A stretch of 45,933 nt of DNA. Source: a virus. The translations under genes and the position numbers were made by a program. The stretch is from the IMG/VR virus record IMGVR_UViG_3300045534_000075, positions 1 through 45,933 of that record. The stretch is one strand, 5' to 3'. The stretch's first letter is position 1; each line of letters begins with the position of its first letter. Of this stretch, positions 5,263 to 30,234 are shown piece after piece. The notes under the pieces are model-generated. The model saw nothing but the letters and a program-made list of their open reading frames with translations. It ran no database searches and had not been told where the DNA came from.

Positions 5263-5480
5263 TGCCCTATACCGAATACATCACGAACGAGGGCGACCGC
5301 CTGGACACAATCGCCAACAAGGCATACGGCAACCCGTATGACTGGCAGCGCATTTTGTCGGCGAATCCGTCCCTACCCCTCCAGGACGTGTACGCCGCCG
5401 GCGTGCGCCTGTCTATTGAGATACAAGAGCAGGCCGACGTTGAACAATCCGTGAACCTGTTACCGCCCTGGAAAAGATGA
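5262..5480 (+). CDS. Tail protein X (LysM-like)
   Basis: This 72-residue protein is a phage tail X family member with a single LysM-type fold: EGDRLDTIANKAYGNPYDWQRILSANPSL, with the conserved W and N typical of LysM. In P2-like phages gpX lies next to gpU and helps assemble the hub at the baseplate. The ATG overlaps the gpU stop (TAATG) and the stop overlaps the gpD start (ATGA). Confidence 0.92.
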   Translation: MPYTEYITNEGDRLDTIANKAYGNPYDWQRILSANPSLPLQDVYAAGVRLSIEIQEQADVEQSVNLLPPWKR

Positions 5481-6454
5481 ACGCACGGCAAATCGCGTTT
5501 GAGGTGCTGTATAACAGCCGGAATATCACGACCGATATATCCCCTTTCATCACGTCCATATCTTACACAGATAAGACAGAAGGCGAATCGGATACAATAG
5601 AAATACAGGTTGACGATACGGACGGACTTTGGCGTGCGGACTGGTACCCGGCAAAAGGCGATACCCTCGAAGTTAAGATCGGATATACCGACCTGCTTTT
5701 GCCTTGCGGGAAATTTGAAATAGACGAAATAGAAATTTCAGGCGCGCCGGATACCGTGCGGATTATGGGACTGGCAACCGGCACGCAGCCCGCGCTGCGA
5801 ACGCGCAACAATTCAGCGCACGAAAATAAGACGCTGGCAGAAGTCGCAAATACCATTGCAGGCAAACACGGGCTAACAGTCCAAGGTACGATCGAGAACA
5901 TTCGAATCAACCGCGCGACGCAATACCGGGAAACGGATCTTGCGTTCCTGAAAAAAATATCATATAAGTACGGGCATATTTTCAGCATCCGGGGGAGCGC
6001 GCTAATTTTCCAGACGATATACGAAATAGAAGGCACGGACGGCGTGACTACAATAGACCGCACAGACCTAACCCGGTACAGCCTAAAGGATAAGACGTCG
6101 GAAACCTACAAGGCCGCCGAAGTCAAATACCACGACCCTGTCGAAAAGAAAGTCGTGACGCATACGGAAAACGCAACGGCAACGGATACGGCGGGCGATA
6201 CCCTGGTCATCCAGTGCAAGGCGGAAAATCCAACGCAGGCGCAATCGCAGGCGAAGGCAGCGCTTCACAGAGCCAACACGCGCCGACAATCTGGCAGCCT
6301 GTCAATGCCTGGCAATCCGCTTATTGTGTCGGGCAACAACTTCGAATTAACCGGGCTGGGGGTATTGTCCGGCAAATATCACATAGAAGAAAGCAGCCAC
6401 CAAATAAGCCGGGGCGGATACACGACCGACGCGACCGTTAAAAAAGTCGGATAG
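5477..6454 (+). CDS. Baseplate hub / late control protein D-like
   Basis: The 325-residue product belongs to the P2 gpD / T4 gp27 hub family. Evidence includes the N-terminal beta domain (ISPFITSISYTDKTEGESDTIEIQVDD), the LEVKIGY and KFEIDEIEIS strands, and the middle domain with YRETDLAFLKKISYKYGHIF, a strong marker of the family. It forms the trimeric hub joining tube and spike. Gene order X-D-V is as expected, but here the V gene is separated from D by 414 bases carrying tRNA-like sequences. Confidence 0.92.
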   Translation: MNARQIAFEVLYNSRNITTDISPFITSISYTDKTEGESDTIEIQVDDTDGLWRADWYPAKGDTLEVKIGYTDLLLPCGKFEIDEIEISGAPDTVRIMGLATGTQPALRTRNNSAHENKTLAEVANTIAGKHGLTVQGTIENIRINRATQYRETDLAFLKKISYKYGHIFSIRGSALIFQTIYEIEGTDGVTTIDRTDLTRYSLKDKTSETYKAAEVKYHDPVEKKVVTHTENATATDTAGDTLVIQCKAENPTQAQSQAKAALHRANTRRQSGSLSMPGNPLIVSGNNFELTGLGVLSGKYHIEESSHQISRGGYTTDATVKKVG

Positions 6455-6484
6455 GCGACAAAGTAAAAAATATTTGCGCGAATG

Positions 6485-6517
6485 TTTGGAAATTAAAAAC
6501 GGGTGCGCGTATATTTG
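6485..6517 (+). promoter_or_regulatory. Bacteroidota-type promoter for the tRNA block
   Basis: TTTG at 6485-6488 and TATATTTG at 6510-6517 are separated by 21 bases, the same spacing as the two promoter-like sites at 14338 and 16418. All three are followed by AGCCA. It lies just after the gpD stop and points at the tRNA-like genes, giving them a transcription start independent of the tail operon. Confidence 0.7.
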
Positions 6518-6556
6518 AGCCAACAAAGGACAGGAAAAGCGGGGCAACCCGCAAAC

Positions 6557-6628
6557 AACGGCGTAGTTCAAGTGTGAGAACCCCCGGCTGCTAACCGGGA
6601 AATGCGGGTTCAAATCCCGTCGCCGTGA
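6557..6628 (+). tRNA. tRNA-Ser(GCU)-like gene with a short variable loop
   Basis: The sequence folds as a cloverleaf. The acceptor is 6557-6563 with 6621-6627 (six pairs, mismatch at the end pair). The D stem is GTTC/GAAC (6566-6569, 6578-6581). The anticodon stem is CCCGG/CCGGG (6583-6587, 6595-6599) with loop CTGCTAA, anticodon GCT. A four-base variable loop follows, then a T stem with the canonical TTCAAAT loop (6609-6615). GCU should decode AGC/AGU serine, but bacterial serine tRNAs carry a long variable arm, which is absent here. The D loop also lacks the usual GG. CCA is not encoded. It is clearly tRNA-derived; its charging identity is uncertain. Confidence 0.75.
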
Positions 6629-6632
6629 CTAA

Positions 6633-6687
6633 GTTTGCAACTGGAAAGTATGCGAACCCCGACGCCGGACGGTATATTCCGGCAAAC
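6633..6687 (+). other. Structured spacer between the two tRNA-like genes
   Basis: GTTTGC (6633-6638) is complementary to GCAAAC (6682-6687), and GCCGGA (6664-6669) to TCCGGC (6678-6683), so most of the spacer can fold. GAACCCCG (6654-6661) is also complementary to CGGGGTTC in the T arm of the next element (6748-6755), so alternative pairing between the two is possible. There is no T-loop motif, so it is not called a third tRNA. Confidence 0.5.
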
Positions 6688-14402: not shown

Positions 14403-14573
14403 ATGACAGAACAACTTATCCAAACCGTTACCAACCGCGCAAACGAAATGCTTAAAAACTCGGAGATTGCAAAAATCTATAACGCAATGCCGACTAAAGA
14501 CGCGGCGCAAGCGTGGTTAATTAAAGCCGCTATCGCTACCTTGATAACACCTGTAAACGAGCGGACTAAATGA
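14403..14573 (+). CDS. Small early protein, unknown
   Basis: This 56-residue, mainly helical protein (MTEQLIQTVTNRANEM...) is the first gene after the early promoter. It has no recognisable motif. Its stop overlaps the next start (ATGA). The promoter position and coupled downstream gene support it as real. Confidence 0.75.
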   Translation: MTEQLIQTVTNRANEMLKNSEIAKIYNAMPTKDAAQAWLIKAAIATLITPVNERTK

Positions 14574-14782
14574 AATTAGGAATCCTAAAACGTAAATCGC
14601 AAGTCGTCTGCCTGCACTGCCGGAAAAAACGGCAGCGCACGGCGGAGGTTTGGGTAACGGCGGGCGAAATTGACGCCGCTATGGAATTGTTAGACAAAAA
14701 AATTAGGCAGCCTTACACCTGCAAGAAATGCAGGGATAAGGAGGCGGAGGGAGAAACAACGCACGCAATAAAATGGATATAA
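14570..14782 (+). CDS. Small zinc-ribbon-like protein
   Basis: The 70-residue basic protein has two Cys pairs, CLHC (residues 14-17) and CKKC (51-54), spaced as in a small zinc ribbon, with a helical linker between. This suggests binding of nucleic acid or protein. It lies in a tight early cluster and overlaps the HTH gene downstream by 10 bases. It might be an early regulator; no family is recognised. Confidence 0.75.
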   Translation: MKLGILKRKSQVVCLHCRKKRQRTAEVWVTAGEIDAAMELLDKKIRQPYTCKKCRDKEAEGETTHAIKWI

Positions 14783-15000
14783 TTCAGGAACTCAAAACCG
14801 CCTGCAAAGAAGCAGGCACAAACTTAACCGAACTATGCCGCGAAGCCGGGGTGGATCGTTCGGTAGTCGAACGGTGGAAAAACAAGCCGCCGAAATCGTT
14901 TGAAACGCTTATCCGGCTTAATACCGCATTATCGAAGTTAAAGCACAATCGCCATGATTCTACGAGCGTACCAAACGAAAGCGGTGCAGGCAATCCGTGA
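14773..15000 (+). CDS. Small helix-turn-helix protein
   Basis: Residues 1-55 of this 75-residue protein form a Cro/XRE-like helix-turn-helix (ELKTACKEAGTNLTELCREAGVDRSVVERWKN). It may act on the divergent promoters just upstream. The C-terminal 20 residues are low complexity and lie over the start of the helicase gene, with which it overlaps by 47 bases in another frame. Confidence 0.8.
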   Translation: MDIIQELKTACKEAGTNLTELCREAGVDRSVVERWKNKPPKSFETLIRLNTALSKLKHNRHDSTSVPNESGAGNP

Positions 15001-23838: not shown

Positions 23839-26490
23839 ATGAAACAGGACATTACAACCCTGAAACAACGCGTTAACATCGTGGACGTAATCGAAAAACG
23901 CGTCACGCTCAAAAAGAAAGCCGGGGAATACGTTGGGTTATGTCCGTTTCACGCGGACACGAAAGCGTCCTTGCAGGTCAATGAGAAAAAACAGGTATTT
24001 GCGTGCTTTGCGTGCGGGAAATCCGGCGACGTGCTGGACTTCCTGGTGGAGATGGGGGCGACGTTCCAGGAGGCGGTCGCGGAAATTTCCGGCGGTGAAA
24101 TGAATTTGCACATGCCGGAAAAACGCACGATTGAGAAACGTACGCAGGCGGTCGCATGGACGCAAATTTCACCGGCACCGGCGCCGGGGCAAATAGTCCA
24201 TTATCGGCACGGCGCGCCGGTCGGCGTCTGGCAATACACGCAGGCGGACGGGGCGTTAATCGGGCTGATATGCCGGTTCGATACGCCGGACGGCAAACAG
24301 GTATTGCCGTACACATACCGGACGGACGGCACGCGTAAGGAATGGCGCTGGCAGGGGTTCGAAATCCCGCGTCCGGTGTTTAATCTGCATCGTTTGGCGC
24401 AACGGACGGAGGCGACGGTGTTAGTTGTGGAGGGCGAAAAGGCGGCCACGGCGGCGTCTGTATTGTTGCCGCATGTTGTTGTGACGTGCTGGCAGGGCGG
24501 CGCAAAGGCAATCAAGAACACCGATTGGACGCCGTTATACGGGCGGAAGGTTGTGCTTTGGCCGGATAATGACGCGCCGGGGACGGCTGCAATGCTGGAG
24601 ATAGCCGGCCTGTTGAAGCATCATTGCGAGGTAGTGAAATGGATACCATGCCCGCAAAACGCGCCGGAAAAATGGGACGTGGCTGACGCTACCTGGACGC
24701 CGGATGAAGCGCTGGCATATGTCCGGGCGAATATTACAACGCCGCCGGATGGTGGGGCGGCTGATCGGGCGGAACGGGTGGAGGCGGAATATTACCCGCC
24801 CGAACCCGTCGCCCAGGAACCCGGCGCGCCTGTAAATTTCGAATATAACCCGCCGCCGCCTGACTTTGGGGCGGACGCGCCCGAAATTCGAGAAGAGCCG
24901 TTTAAGGTGTTGGGGTTCTTCAAACAGGAAGACCAAACCGTTTACGCGTTTTTTTCGGAGTTGCAGCACCAGGTGCACATTTTTAAGCCGTCAAGTTTGA
25001 CGGCGGCAAACCTGCTATTACTTGCGCCGCTGGATTTTTGGCAGACGTTTTTCCCAAAACCAAAATCAAAATCTTTCGACGTGGAAACGGCCATGAACTG
25101 GTTAATGCGCTGCGGGGATTCGGCGGGCATATATTCGCCGACAAACACGCGGGGTAGAGGTGCTTGGATGGACGCCGGGCGGGTGGTAATTCACCACGGG
25201 GACGGGCTGGTGGTGGACGGCGCGCCGGTGAAGTTGGGCGGGATAGAAACGCGGTACATGTACGAGGCTTCCGCGCCGCTGTCGTTTCCGGTTGAGAATC
25301 CTTTGCAAAACAGAGAGGCGAACAGGTTAATGGAGGTGATGGGGCTGATAAATTGGGAGCGGCCGGTGAACGCGCATCTTTTGGCAGGATGGTGCGTGAT
25401 TGCCCCGATATGCGGTGCGCTTCGATGGAGGCCGCACGTTTGGATCACGGGCGCGGCGGGTACGGGTAAGTCGTGGGTATTCAATTCGATTGTCCGGCGT
25501 TTGTTGGGGCGCAACGTGTTAGCTGTGCAATCGGAAACATCCGAGGCGGGAATCCGGCAAACGATCCGAAACGACGCGCTTCCGATTGTTTTTGACGAAG
25601 CCGAGGGCGAAGATAAGCGCGCGCGCGAACGCATGGAATCGGTACTATCTCTTATGCGGGCTTCGTCTGCCGAAGACGGCGGCGTTATGCTGAAAGGTAG
25701 CGCGGGCGGGCGTGCGCAAACGTACCAGATACGATCGTGCTTTGCGTTCGCGTCTATCGGGGTGCAGATTACGCATCAATCCGACCGGGGGCGCGTAACC
25801 ATCCTGGCACTCACAAAACCCGCTGAAGCGACGCGAGCGGAACGTTGGGAACGGTTGAAAATCCTGCACAGGCAGGTGATTACGCCGGATTTTGTGAAGC
25901 GCTTGCAGGCGCGCACGGTGTCTTTGATGCCCGTGATTTTGGCGAACGCGGATACGTTTGCCGAAGCCGTCGCGTTTGAACTTGGAGAGCAGCGCGCCGG
26001 GGATCAATTAGGGGCGCTGCTGGCAGGGGCTTATAGTCTGTATTCGGGCAACCGGATAACTTTCGATGAGGCTGTGCGGTGGGTGAAAAATCAGAATTGG
26101 GAAGAGGAACGCAGCCTGGATACGTCGCGGGATGAACTGGTTTTGCTGTCGCGGATAATGGACATTGTTTTGCGGGTGGACGCGGTAAACCTTGACCGGA
26201 CGGTCGGGGAACTGCTAATAATTGCGACGTGTGAGGTGTTTGATGAGACGATTAGTAGCAAGGTTGCCCTGGACAGGCTTATGCGCATCGGAATTAAGGC
26301 GGAAAACGATCATTTCCTAATTTCGCAGTCGCACACGGCTATCCTGAAAGCCGTCGAAAATACGGCGTGGGCAAAATCAATCGGCCGGACGCTGTTACGG
26401 ATCGAAGGGGCGCAAGCGGTGGGTTCCTGCAGGTTCGGGCCGGGGCATACATCGCGGGCGGTGCGGTTGCCTGTTGCCCTGCTGAAATGA
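23839..26490 (+). CDS. DNA primase-helicase
   Basis: The 883-residue protein joins three parts. Residues 30-70 form a CHC2 zinc finger (Cys 35, His 38, Cys 56, Cys 59). Residues about 190-250 form a Toprim domain (VVEGEK, then WPDNDAPG). Residues about 495-880 form an ATPase region with Walker A GAAGTGKS (538-545) and Walker B VFDEAE (584-589), like phage DUF927/primase-associated helicases. A proline-rich linker (about 300-345) separates the halves. It primes and unwinds DNA at the phage origin. No polymerase gene is seen, so it probably recruits the host replicase. The leader AATTTTTTTTACC matches that of the gene at 16484. Confidence 0.93.
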   Translation: MKQDITTLKQRVNIVDVIEKRVTLKKKAGEYVGLCPFHADTKASLQVNEKKQVFACFACGKSGDVLDFLVEMGATFQEAVAEISGGEMNLHMPEKRTIEKRTQAVAWTQISPAPAPGQIVHYRHGAPVGVWQYTQADGALIGLICRFDTPDGKQVLPYTYRTDGTRKEWRWQGFEIPRPVFNLHRLAQRTEATVLVVEGEKAATAASVLLPHVVVTCWQGGAKAIKNTDWTPLYGRKVVLWPDNDAPGTAAMLEIAGLLKHHCEVVKWIPCPQNAPEKWDVADATWTPDEALAYVRANITTPPDGGAADRAERVEAEYYPPEPVAQEPGAPVNFEYNPPPPDFGADAPEIREEPFKVLGFFKQEDQTVYAFFSELQHQVHIFKPSSLTAANLLLLAPLDFWQTFFPKPKSKSFDVETAMNWLMRCGDSAGIYSPTNTRGRGAWMDAGRVVIHHGDGLVVDGAPVKLGGIETRYMYEASAPLSFPVENPLQNREANRLMEVMGLINWERPVNAHLLAGWCVIAPICGALRWRPHVWITGAAGTGKSWVFNSIVRRLLGRNVLAVQSETSEAGIRQTIRNDALPIVFDEAEGEDKRARERMESVLSLMRASSAEDGGVMLKGSAGGRAQTYQIRSCFAFASIGVQITHQSDRGRVTILALTKPAEATRAERWERLKILHRQVITPDFVKRLQARTVSLMPVILANADTFAEAVAFELGEQRAGDQLGALLAGAYSLYSGNRITFDEAVRWVKNQNWEEERSLDTSRDELVLLSRIMDIVLRVDAVNLDRTVGELLIIATCEVFDETISSKVALDRLMRIGIKAENDHFLISQSHTAILKAVENTAWAKSIGRTLLRIEGAQAVGSCRFGPGHTSRAVRLPVALLK

Positions 26491-26491
26491 G

Positions 26492-26523
26492 AAACGCCGG
26501 CTTTTGTGGCCGGCGTTTTTTTT
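26492..26523. terminator. Rho-independent terminator after the primase gene
   Basis: A 10-bp stem (AAACGCCGGC/GCCGGCGTTT) with a 7-base loop is followed by T's to 26523. It ends the early + strand operon directly after the primase stop. The A/T symmetry lets it also end the converging - strand gene at 26522. Confidence 0.9.
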
Positions 26524-27308: not shown

Positions 27309-27338
27309 TAACGAACGTCGAATCCGTTTAACGAACGT
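27309..27338. repeat. Direct repeat TAACGAACGT x2, operator-like
   Basis: TAACGAACGT occurs at 27309-27318 and 27329-27338, exactly 20 bases apart (two helical turns). The pair lies between the - strand promoter and the lysis cassette. It is a good candidate operator for one of the small DNA-binding proteins, for example the ribbon-helix-helix protein encoded nearby. Confidence 0.6.
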
Positions 27339-27400
27339 AAAATATTAACCGTTTCAAATACCCAAAAAACCCGAACTTTGCGGCGTGTGTTTGGTGTTTG

Positions 27401-28192: not shown

Positions 28193-28897
28193 ATGGCAAA
28201 ACAAACGCACAAAATCTTTGAGCGATTCCAGGGCGGTAGCGCCGGGGCAACGCCGAACGCCGGGGCAACCTTCGCGGATCGGATTATCCGGCAAATGCAA
28301 TCCAAAAAATACCATATCGCCCGCAATCCGGGGGAGGTTAATATCGTGTACCTGGAGGGCGCGGACGCGGACGGCAAACCAAACGCCGACGCGGCCGACG
28401 GCTGGAACGATCGGCGTATCGTGATCGTATTCCAGGGTGGCGCGCCCGTAATCATTCACAACGCGCAGGCAACAACGGAGCCGGGCGTGTTGGCCACAAA
28501 CAGCGAAGGGGCGCGCCGTCGGGGAGGTGTTGCGCGGGTGCAGTTCGGGCAGTTTGCCGTTTGGCAGGTCGGGTACCACAATGAACGGCGCAACGGGCGA
28601 TTGCATCCGGCTTTAGTGCAACGCCGGCCGCTAAAAGTCCACCGCGACGCAAACAGGGACGGGAAACGCACGGGCGACGCGCTGGATTTTGCGTTCGGAA
28701 TCAATCAGCACAGCACGCGCCCGAATGTGTTACCGGCGCGGGTGGATAATTGGTCGGAGGGGTGTTTAGTTGGCCGGTCGTGGATTGAACACGAACAATT
28801 TATGGCGCTGGTAAAAGCCGACCCGCGATTTAAGGCGGATGCGGGGTATTTTTTTCATACGGCTATCATTCCGGCAAAGGAGGTTTGGAGCGTCTGA
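28193..28897 (+). CDS. L,D-transpeptidase-like protein, probable endolysin
   Basis: The 234-residue protein lacks a signal peptide. Its middle has conserved-looking segments (TTEPGVLATNSEGARRRGGVA; GQFAVWQVGYHN; HPALVQRRPLKVHRD) and an acidic DANRDGKRTGD loop like a calcium site. It ends with INQHS (His 173) and WSEGCLVG (Ser 188, Cys 191), resembling the His/Ser-x-Gly-Cys active site of YkuD-type L,D-transpeptidases and related peptidases. In a lysis cassette this suggests peptidoglycan cleavage. The family is inferred from the motif only. Confidence 0.65.
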   Translation: MAKQTHKIFERFQGGSAGATPNAGATFADRIIRQMQSKKYHIARNPGEVNIVYLEGADADGKPNADAADGWNDRRIVIVFQGGAPVIIHNAQATTEPGVLATNSEGARRRGGVARVQFGQFAVWQVGYHNERRNGRLHPALVQRRPLKVHRDANRDGKRTGDALDFAFGINQHSTRPNVLPARVDNWSEGCLVGRSWIEHEQFMALVKADPRFKADAGYFFHTAIIPAKEVWSV

Positions 28898-29025
28898 CTG
28901 ATCGGCGGGGCGGGTAATCGGAGCCGCCAAAAAAAAATTCTTCCTGCTGTTACCGAATCCAGGCGCAAAATCGGCGCTTACGGTGATCGGATTTTCGGAA
29001 ACGTTGAAAAATGTAAACCGAAATT

Positions 29026-29058
29026 TAGCCTCGCTTTTCGGAGCGGGGCTATTTTTTT
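29026..29058 (+). terminator. Rho-independent terminator after the lysis cassette
   Basis: A 9-bp stem (TAGCCTCGC/GCGGGGCTA, one T-G wobble) with an 8-base loop is followed by seven T's. It lies 128 bases after the endolysin-like stop and closes the lysis operon. Confidence 0.88.
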
Positions 29059-29140
29059 ACCCTTTTTTGGGTAGAAAAGTGTAAACAGGATTTTTGCGGT
29101 TTACGTTTTTTCGGCGTTTTTTCTACCCTAATTTGGGTAG
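29058..29140. repeat. Two copies of the palindrome TACCC-N6-GGGTA
   Basis: TACCC-N6-GGGTA lies at 29058-29073 and again, extended to CTACCC-N6-GGGTAG, at 29123-29140. Each is a dyad fit for a dimeric protein. They sit at the left edge of the GTTTACAC array. A related AACCCAAAAGGGGTAA lies at 29603-29618 next to the late promoter. Confidence 0.7.
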
Positions 29141-29591
29141 ATATATTACGTTTTGTTGTCATATTACGACTATTTTAGCGCGTATCTTGTTTATTTACAG
29201 CGTTTTACAACGAAAAAACGGCGTTTTTTGGCTTCGTTTACACTTAAAACGATGTTAATCAATAAGATACACTTTAAAAAAACGCTTTCGTTTACACTCG
29301 TTTACACCTAAAGCGCTGAGTATCAATTGTAAACGGTGTAAACAGGAAAAATAGATATATACACATACATACATACACATACATACATACATATAAATAC
29401 AGGCATAGAGTTATACATGGGGATATATTTCTTATTATTTCTGTTTACAAATAGATATATATATAATAAGAGATTGAAAGTCAGCAAGTTAAGTGTAAAC
29501 GAGAGTCTGTTTACACTCGTTTACACCTTTTGTTAAGTATTTGATTTATAGGGCTTTAAGTGTAAACAAGATTTTTTAGACTTGTTTACAC
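29079..29591. repeat. Iteron-like array of GTTTACAC (10 exact copies)
   Basis: GTTTACAC occurs at 29236, 29290, 29300, 29509, 29519 and 29584, and its complement GTGTAAAC at 29079, 29336, 29493 and 29560. Looser copies lie at 29012, 29327 and 29443. The 20-mer GTTTACACTCGTTTACACCT is present twice (29290-29309, 29509-29528). Two inverted pairs make long palindromes: 9-base arms around 29500/29509 and 11-base arms at 29560-29570/29581-29591. The region is AT-rich and non-coding. It could be a replication origin or an activator/repressor array for late transcription. Confidence 0.85.
29361..29394. repeat. CATA microsatellite
   Basis: A run of ACAT/ACATAC units about 34 bases long lies inside the GTTTACAC array. 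It is flanked by two copies of AAATAGATATATA (29348, 29449). The run is easily melted or bent and may serve as an unwinding element if the array is an origin. Confidence 0.7.
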
Positions 29592-29615
29592 CTGCCTGAA
29601 TTAACCCAAAAGGGG

Positions 29616-29623
29616 TAATTTTG
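29616..29623 (+). promoter_or_regulatory. -7 element of the first late promoter
   Basis: TAATTTTG lies 5 bases before the ATG at 29629. No TTTG stands at the -33 position; instead a GTTTACAC copy (29584-29591) abuts it. This suggests an activator-dependent promoter with an almost leaderless mRNA. Confidence 0.6.
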
Positions 29624-29628
29624 CGGGC

Positions 29629-30234
29629 ATGATCGAAATATCCGTACAAAAAGCCATTAAAGACGCGAAGCGGGAATTTGCCGACCTTTCGGCGTACAAT
29701 ATTAAGCGCGGGGTGTCGAACGCGATTAACCATACCTTAGGCGTAAGCAAGACCCTAGTTCGGCGAAGTATCCAAGGGCAATATAAAATCCGGGCAAAGG
29801 AATTGAACAAGGCGATGCGCATACAGCGCGCAAGCGCAAGGCAGCCCGCGCAATATGGTATGCTGATTGCAAAAGGCAGCCCGCTTCCTCTTATCGGGTT
29901 TGGGGCAAGGCAGGTAAAGCGCGGGGTTTCCGTAAACGTGCTTAGCGGTCGCACGGTCATTAAGAAAGCCTTTATCGGTTCCATGCGAACGGGGTATCGC
30001 GGCGTATTTGCCCGTGGTACTTATTCTGGCGGTGAATTTCAATTCAGGACAAAACGAATACGCAAAACAGGATCGGACATTCCCATTACGGAATTGAAAA
30101 CGGTATCCATTCCAAAGGCTTTAGGAAACAGCGTCGTGATCAAGCACCTTACCGAAAAAATCAACACGCATTTTCCCGGCCGTCTAACGCATGAACTTAT
30201 GCGGCTGCGCACGTCGGTAGGCGACGGCGTGTAA
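29629..30234 (+). CDS. Minor tail protein Z-like
   Basis: The 201-residue basic protein resembles the lambda gpZ minor tail family: helical N terminus (KAIKDAKREFADLSAYNIKRGVSNAINHTLG), then a RQPAQYGMLIAKGSPLPLIGF segment and C-terminal HLTEKINTHFPGRLTHELMRL. gpZ acts at tail completion. It is the first late gene, separated from the packaging genes by 211 bases of non-coding DNA, an unusual place for a tail protein. Confidence 0.75.
   Translation: MIEISVQKAIKDAKREFADLSAYNIKRGVSNAINHTLGVSKTLVRRSIQGQYKIRAKELNKAMRIQRASARQPAQYGMLIAKGSPLPLIGFGARQVKRGVSVNVLSGRTVIKKAFIGSMRTGYRGVFARGTYSGGEFQFRTKRIRKTGSDIPITELKTVSIPKALGNSVVIKHLTEKINTHFPGRLTHELMRLRTSVGDGV

Follow-up and report, generated by a model that had tools for sequence, protein, structure and literature searches.

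A noncoding repeat array between the lysis and packaging genes of a contractile-tailed phage is in all likelihood its replication origin, of the kind opened by a self-loading initiator helicase and read here by the phage's own primase-helicase. The DNA analyzed, hereafter the window, is the whole of the IMG/VR virus contig IMGVR_UViG_3300045534_000075 (45,933 bp), which carries a 127-bp direct terminal repeat and is therefore probably a complete genome of ~45.8 kb, either circularly assembled or terminally redundant. The array is composed of two arms of sites around a low-GC core, keeps its slot among syntenic relatives, and recurs with other motifs beside homologues of a primase-helicase whose modeled fold matches that of known initiators.

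Genomic setting of the repeat array

The encoded genes identify the phage as contractile-tailed (lambda gpA-type terminase, capsid-protease fusion, tail sheath) and further include an SSB, a RecT-like protein, helicases, methyltransferases, a VRR nuclease, and the 883-aa primase-helicase. The features considered below, in window coordinates, are:

23839-26490, plus strand: 883-aa CHC2 zinc-finger/Toprim (DUF6371) primase fused to an AAA+ helicase, the proposed initiator
28193-28897, plus strand: gene bordering the array on the left, weakly matching an endolysin family (match search)
29011-29086, minus strand: two outlying repeat copies (29011, one mismatch; 29079, exact), not conserved in the relative L067
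29026-29058, plus strand: intrinsic terminator of the upstream (lysis) unit, a stem at 29026-29051 plus a T tract
29236-29343, no strand: left arm, sites 29236+, 29290+, 29300+, 29327- (one mismatch), and 29336-
29344-29442, no strand: central core, 26% GC, a candidate unwinding element that holds the conserved block CATGGGGATATATTT
29355-29395, no strand: 41-nt alternating purine-pyrimidine tract including the CATA repeat, the longest in the genome (shuffle maximum 24)
29443-29591, no strand: right arm, sites 29443+ (one mismatch), 29493-, 29509+, 29519+, 29560-, and 29584+
29616-29623, plus strand: TAATTTTG, a promoter-like element of the Bacteroidota -7 type (TAnnTTTG) beside the gpZ start codon, from sequence
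29629-30234, plus strand: gpZ-like minor tail or neck gene, first right of the array, marking the conserved slot (match search)

We take TAnnTTTG to be the Bacteroidota -7 consensus and assigned the element at 29616-29623 by its likeness to it; L067 has TATCTTTG at the equivalent place. These elements before gpZ suggest a Bacteroidota host. No convincing gene was found in the gap that the array occupies, no Rfam match to an RNA element between positions 26000 and 30000 of the window, and no excess of sigma-70 promoters.

Elsewhere in the window, a strong terminator-like hairpin lies directly 3' of the primase (26492-26518), and the next ~0.9 kb contains small minus-strand ORFs; in relatives, the equivalent stretch is occupied by their arrays. 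A second array directly after the window's own primase was looked for, and none was found. Two direct repeats containing TAACGAACGT lie upstream of the lysis unit (27309-27343) and may be an operator, and a lone GTTTACA (14552-14558) lies just upstream of a small gene at 14570.

A two-arm array of short sites

An earlier reading of these letters, made without database searches (the sequence-only reading), had described ten exact copies of one 8-mer within 513 bases. The copies of GTTTACAC are at 29079, 29236, 29290, 29300, 29336, 29493, 29509, 29519, 29560, and 29584, a cluster spanning 29079-29591, and their number far exceeds the shuffle maxima: the whole window has 11 copies against 1.39 expected and at most five in 100 shuffles, and no 8-mer was counted more than five times in 500 dinucleotide shuffles of 28898-29628. 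The near copies reported beside the exact ones are at 29011, 29327, and 29443, each with one mismatch, giving 13 sites in total. Also borne out were the tandem pairs at a 10-bp step (29290/29300 and 29509/29519), the duplicated 20-mer (GTTTACACTCGTTTACACCT, at 29290 and 29509), the two boxes (AAATAGATATATA, at 29349 and 29449), and the CATA microsatellite, which runs from 29363 to 29401 and belongs to the longer alternating tract listed above. Both TACCC-N6-GGGTA dyads are present as well (29058-29073 and 29124-29139); the first overlaps the tail of the terminator, and the stretch containing the two has no similar counterpart in L067. Long inverted repeats are real too; among them, I1 and I2 pair the left arm with the right, and the arms are partial mirror images of each other.

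The copies at 29011 and 29079 are not conserved in L067, and for this reason they are probably not essential and the functional array is probably 29236-29591. We rejected a DnaA-box origin: the sites do not fit the TTWTNCACA box, the motif here being GTTTACAC, and where related arrays have imperfect copies, the GTTTAC half is retained and the last base varies, unlike in DnaA boxes.

Conservation of the slot upstream of gpZ

The nearest relatives, contigs L067 and L004 (TerL 79%), carry six exact and several near copies of GTTTACAC in the same slot. Between 29320 and 29591, identity to L067 is 95% at site bases and 63% at the remaining ones; the left arm gives no base-by-base alignment with L067. 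G015 (TerL 54%, primase 43%) has seven copies of TGTTACC directly upstream of gpZ, and G012 (TerL 60%, primase 50%) has TGTTACA/TGTAACG-like sites and the repeat CCGTCAACAAAA there, its sites occupying the most AT-rich 250 bp of that genome. The expectation of conserved clusters upstream of gpZ was thus borne out for the arrays, with exact GTTTACAC confined to the closest relatives (L067/L004). Syntenic relatives devoid of repeats had been named as the refuting case; L067, G015, and G012 all keep arrays, and it is the motif that changes. The short motif thus turns over quickly, and layout and slot are kept.

The primase-helicase as candidate initiator

No gene had been recognized as an initiator by the sequence-only reading, which was mistaken: the fold of the 883-aa primase-helicase matches those of initiator helicases. 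When its AlphaFold model (mean pLDDT 87.6) was searched against the PDB by Foldseek, the best matches included SCCmec Cch (5dgk; E 2.8e-9, probability 1.0), the SaPI5 primase-helicase (7ola, 7pds), and D5-type helicases. The TM-scores of these matches are modest, and no DUF927 was among the hits listed at E<=1 in a sequence search; we therefore claim that the helicase, as modeled, resembles the SaPI/SCCmec initiators in fold and function, and do not claim family membership.

The proposed reader of the sites is the C-terminal domain (about residues 765-883), with a predicted beta hairpin at 859-878; this region, hairpin included, is among the more variable parts within the window's primase family. 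Motif classes share helicase tail residues, an association confounded by descent. A residue-to-base code (R before F with TGT motifs, Y with TCT) was not adopted, being suggestive only and drawn from few sequences related by descent. The C-terminal domain alone, when used in a fold search, returned only insignificant matches; those to forkhead domains, which read GTAAACA, were taken as coincidence.

Arrays beside homologous primases in other phages

Scanning IMG/VR with the pattern GTTTACACNNGTTTACAC returned 48 contigs, most of which have clusters of 3-11 copies, and in many families these adjoin a primase or helicase gene. The replicases beside them differ (PrimPol-DUF3987, Toprim/RecA-type helicase, VapE-like helicase), and the C-termini of two further helicase types next to GTTTACAC arrays match helix-turn-helix or winged-helix domains. 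The loci with unrelated replicases were found with the GTTTACAC pattern, so the 8-mer that they share is partly selected by the search.

Because the GTTTACACNNGTTTACAC pattern search was biased, we also scanned in reverse, taking 78 environmental loci with homologues of the window primase and searching within 3 kb of each primase for clusters of any 7-mer in mixed orientation. Such an array, with at least seven copies (shuffle maxima 3-6), was present at 22 of the 78 loci, in all 22 cases 3' of the primase and mostly within ~130 bp of its stop, as against none within 3 kb of 42 TerL genes in the same scan (Fisher p = 3e-5). Nineteen of the array-bearing primases were compared and fell into 14 clusters at 75% identity. 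Their motifs include CGTTACA, CGTAACA, TGTAACA, GGTAACA, GTTACCA, CGTGACA, CGTGAGA, GTCCGCA, CGCTGAC, GTTGCAA, and others, and the layout that recurs across loci has two arms, pairs 8-12 bp apart, and a core of ~85-170 bp. Three arrays of different motif agree with the window in 6 of its 11 site positions (null maximum 5, 200 draws each); full conservation of the site geometry was rejected, with only 3 of 18 primase-linked arrays matching, at the floor of the test. The other 56 of the 78 loci have no array of at least seven copies within 3 kb; when four relatives from this group were inspected over their whole length, three proved to have a more distant array, and the fourth (G012) has degenerate sites only.

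The same primase-helicase family occurs in Bdellovibrio phage phi1422, with 11 copies of GGTAACA directly after the primase, and in Acinetobacter phage Acjo_20, with nine copies of TGTAACA upstream of it; both arrays are two-armed, adjoin the primase, and are unannotated. KLER1-1 has the same primase, followed by a GCTTACA array. No array was detectable in Bordetella phages, whose primase is 38% identical. A literature search for the motif itself found nothing relevant.

Several further loci were recorded in these scans. In Synechococcus phage S-H1 (L202, 17652-17920), a CCGTTCGG/CCGTTAGG array lies at the end of a primase homologue and is a candidate cyanophage origin. Dense GTTTACAC arrays are present in Saprospiraceae and Prevotellaceae MAG contigs (L167, 32-129, and L195, 7036-7116). 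A Bacteroidetes MAG, AM3_bin-0905, contains a GGGTTTACACNNGTTTACACTTTTT...AAAAAGTGTAAACC element with GTTTACAC pairs in seven dispersed copies on seven contigs (L131, L137, L172, L179, L182, L185, and L188).

Probable exchange of the array together with the helicase tail

Lactobacillus contig L093, which has GTTTACAC, and phage PLE2, which has TGTAGACAC, share 97.8% identity across a 4.3-kb stretch that takes in the primase (99.6%). Their identity ends within the last ~20 helicase codons and resumes beyond the array; the array block differs in its entirety. Within 12881-13380 of L093 are two successive arrays, first GTTTACAC and then GTGGTCAC, with a remnant of a helicase C-terminal tail preceding the second; this double array looks like a captured intermediate in the replacement of an origin cassette. 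The simplest reading of the pair is that helicase tail and array were exchanged as a cassette, and relatives have changed their repeat motif, probably together with the tail end of the helicase. Along with the tail residues shared within motif classes, the pair indirectly supports site reading by the C-terminal domain. In effect it is a swap made by nature, through which recognition of the origin by its initiator can be tested directly.

An alternating purine-pyrimidine core

G012 (57 nt) and G015 (39 nt) have their genome-longest alternating purine-pyrimidine tract in the same place as the window does, with a different sequence; the core of L067 has no long tract of this kind. The longest alternating tract of the locus falls inside the array in 16 of 34 primase-linked arrays, with arrays making up 3% of the sequence (p ~1e-15), and in 11 of 26 after removal of near-duplicates (p ~1e-10), in a test that was post hoc, the pattern having been spotted first. 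Tracts extend up to 80 nt, also in GC-rich phages, and are sometimes GC-rich themselves; beyond mere AT-richness, the core may thus be a stretch that supercoiling drives to melt or to switch into Z-DNA. To our knowledge, an alternating purine-pyrimidine core has not been described for helicase-linked iteron origins; it suggests a supercoil-driven melting element that could work also in GC-rich genomes.

Alternative explanations

The array could be an origin bound by a host protein, or by another phage protein, in place of the primase-helicase. We consider this unlikely, though less so than the other alternatives: the same 8-mer occurs in phages with the unrelated replicases named above, and the seven dispersed GTTTACAC pair elements of AM3_bin-0905 belong to a Bacteroidota MAG. 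Against it, motifs differ among related phages with homologous primases, the L093/PLE2 swap includes the helicase tail, and the shared 8-mer reflects the search pattern.

Of the two explanations that the sequence-only reading had put forward, an iteron origin gained support from the slot, the arms, the primase linkage, and phage Sfi21 (below), and control of late genes by an operator array is left as an improbable alternative. In the latter case a phage regulator would bind the array cooperatively and turn on the packaging/late operon just downstream. TAnnTTTG stands just before gpZ in the window and in L067, in each case ~25 bp downstream of the nearest site, and an HTH gene (14773-15000) matches Cro/C1 families; but in most array-bearing relatives the array directly follows the primase and is unrelated to late genes, none of the 42 TerL genes has one nearby, and a motif that changes while the layout is kept suits an initiator better than a promoter system. 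An array with a dual role, the second in late transcription, is possible.

A turning point of GC skew near 29.3 kb had also been anticipated, and one exists at the array, with the polarity of a terminus rather than an origin (by the bacterial convention) and without a counterpart in relatives. At fourfold sites of same-strand genes, skew of +0.35 to +0.59 gives way precisely at the array to values near zero or negative, and a second sharp change occurs at 5477-6635 (5.5-6.6 kb), about half a genome away. Given this polarity, and with no step in L067, G012, G015, phi1422, KLER1-1, or Sfi21 (whose origin is annotated), skew was rejected as proof of an origin and given no weight for it. A replication terminus or partition site, with the skew maximum marking where forks meet, draws on these two changes, but it is highly improbable: the phages just named lack the step, which could stem from a mosaic origin of the two halves of the genome, and we know of no terminus with two-arm arrays beside primase-helicases.

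A packaging site (cos/pac) whose repeats are bound by the small terminase, as lambda gpNu1 binds the cosB R sites, was rejected on linkage as a very remote prospect: the array is ~850 bp upstream of a small terminase gene, one family of contigs from the pattern search (L085, L098, and others) has the array beside an F3-family gene that we read from its sequence as a small terminase, and the window's large terminase is lambda gpA-like, but the array adjoins the primase in most array-bearing relatives, none lies within 3 kb of the 42 related TerL genes, and in the L093/PLE2 pair the identity of the motif goes with the helicase tail.

Proposed mechanism and implications

In the origin reading that we favor, the C-terminal domain of the primase-helicase (23839-26490) would bind the GTTTACAC sites of both arms, and the helicase would load as rings on both sides of the core. 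The rings would melt the low-GC, alternating purine-pyrimidine core between the arms, after which the fused primase would prime the forks. Binding, melting, origin firing, and the placing of specificity in the helicase C-terminus are steps that we infer.

This reading would provide an origin and a candidate initiator for the large group of phages, most of them uncultured, that encode CHC2/Toprim primase-helicases. More speculatively, and with considerable doubt, environmental phages could share an origin class in which the alternating core is Z-DNA-prone and the motif and helicase tail form one exchanged cassette, the window's origin having moved away from its helicase. If the cassette reading is true, exchange would give phages a new replication compatibility or a way around origin-decoy resistance.

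Comparison with known origins

Streptococcus thermophilus phage Sfi21 has an annotated 302-bp origin (NC_000872, 34487-34784) directly after a D5-type helicase. Like the array in the window, it is helicase-linked and consists of noncoding short repeats in both orientations flanking an AT-rich core; unlike it, the motif is GTAACTA-like, the origin adjoins the helicase gene, and the helicase has a different Pfam set (Pox_D5/DUF5906), with the primase encoded as a separate gene rather than fused. The Rep proteins of SaPIs (SaPIbov1, SaPI5) and Cch/Cch2 of SCCmec are self-loading helicases, which the modeled window helicase resembles in fold (5dgk, 7ola/7pds). The C-terminal domain of SaPI Rep and SCCmec Cch2 binds iterons just downstream of its own gene (PMC7581432). 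The window differs in that its origin is not directly downstream of the helicase, its protein has no DUF927 sequence match, and this protein carries a DnaG-like CHC2/Toprim primase. For pRN1 Rep (orf904), an essential origin region lies 3' of the primase-helicase-winged helix gene (PMC4234260); there the origin is a ~100-bp stem-loop with no repeat array, and the primase is archaeo-eukaryotic. The arrays of phi1422 and Acjo_20 adjoin the primase and have the motifs GGTAACA and TGTAACA, unlike the window.

With SaPI/Sfi21-type origins the window has in common noncoding short repeats, a two-arm layout, and an encoded helicase with an initiator fold; it departs from them in adjacency, the array being 2.6 kb from the helicase gene. 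The origin of the window is thus most likely a variant of the SaPI/Sfi21 kind, displaced to a position between the lysis and packaging genes.
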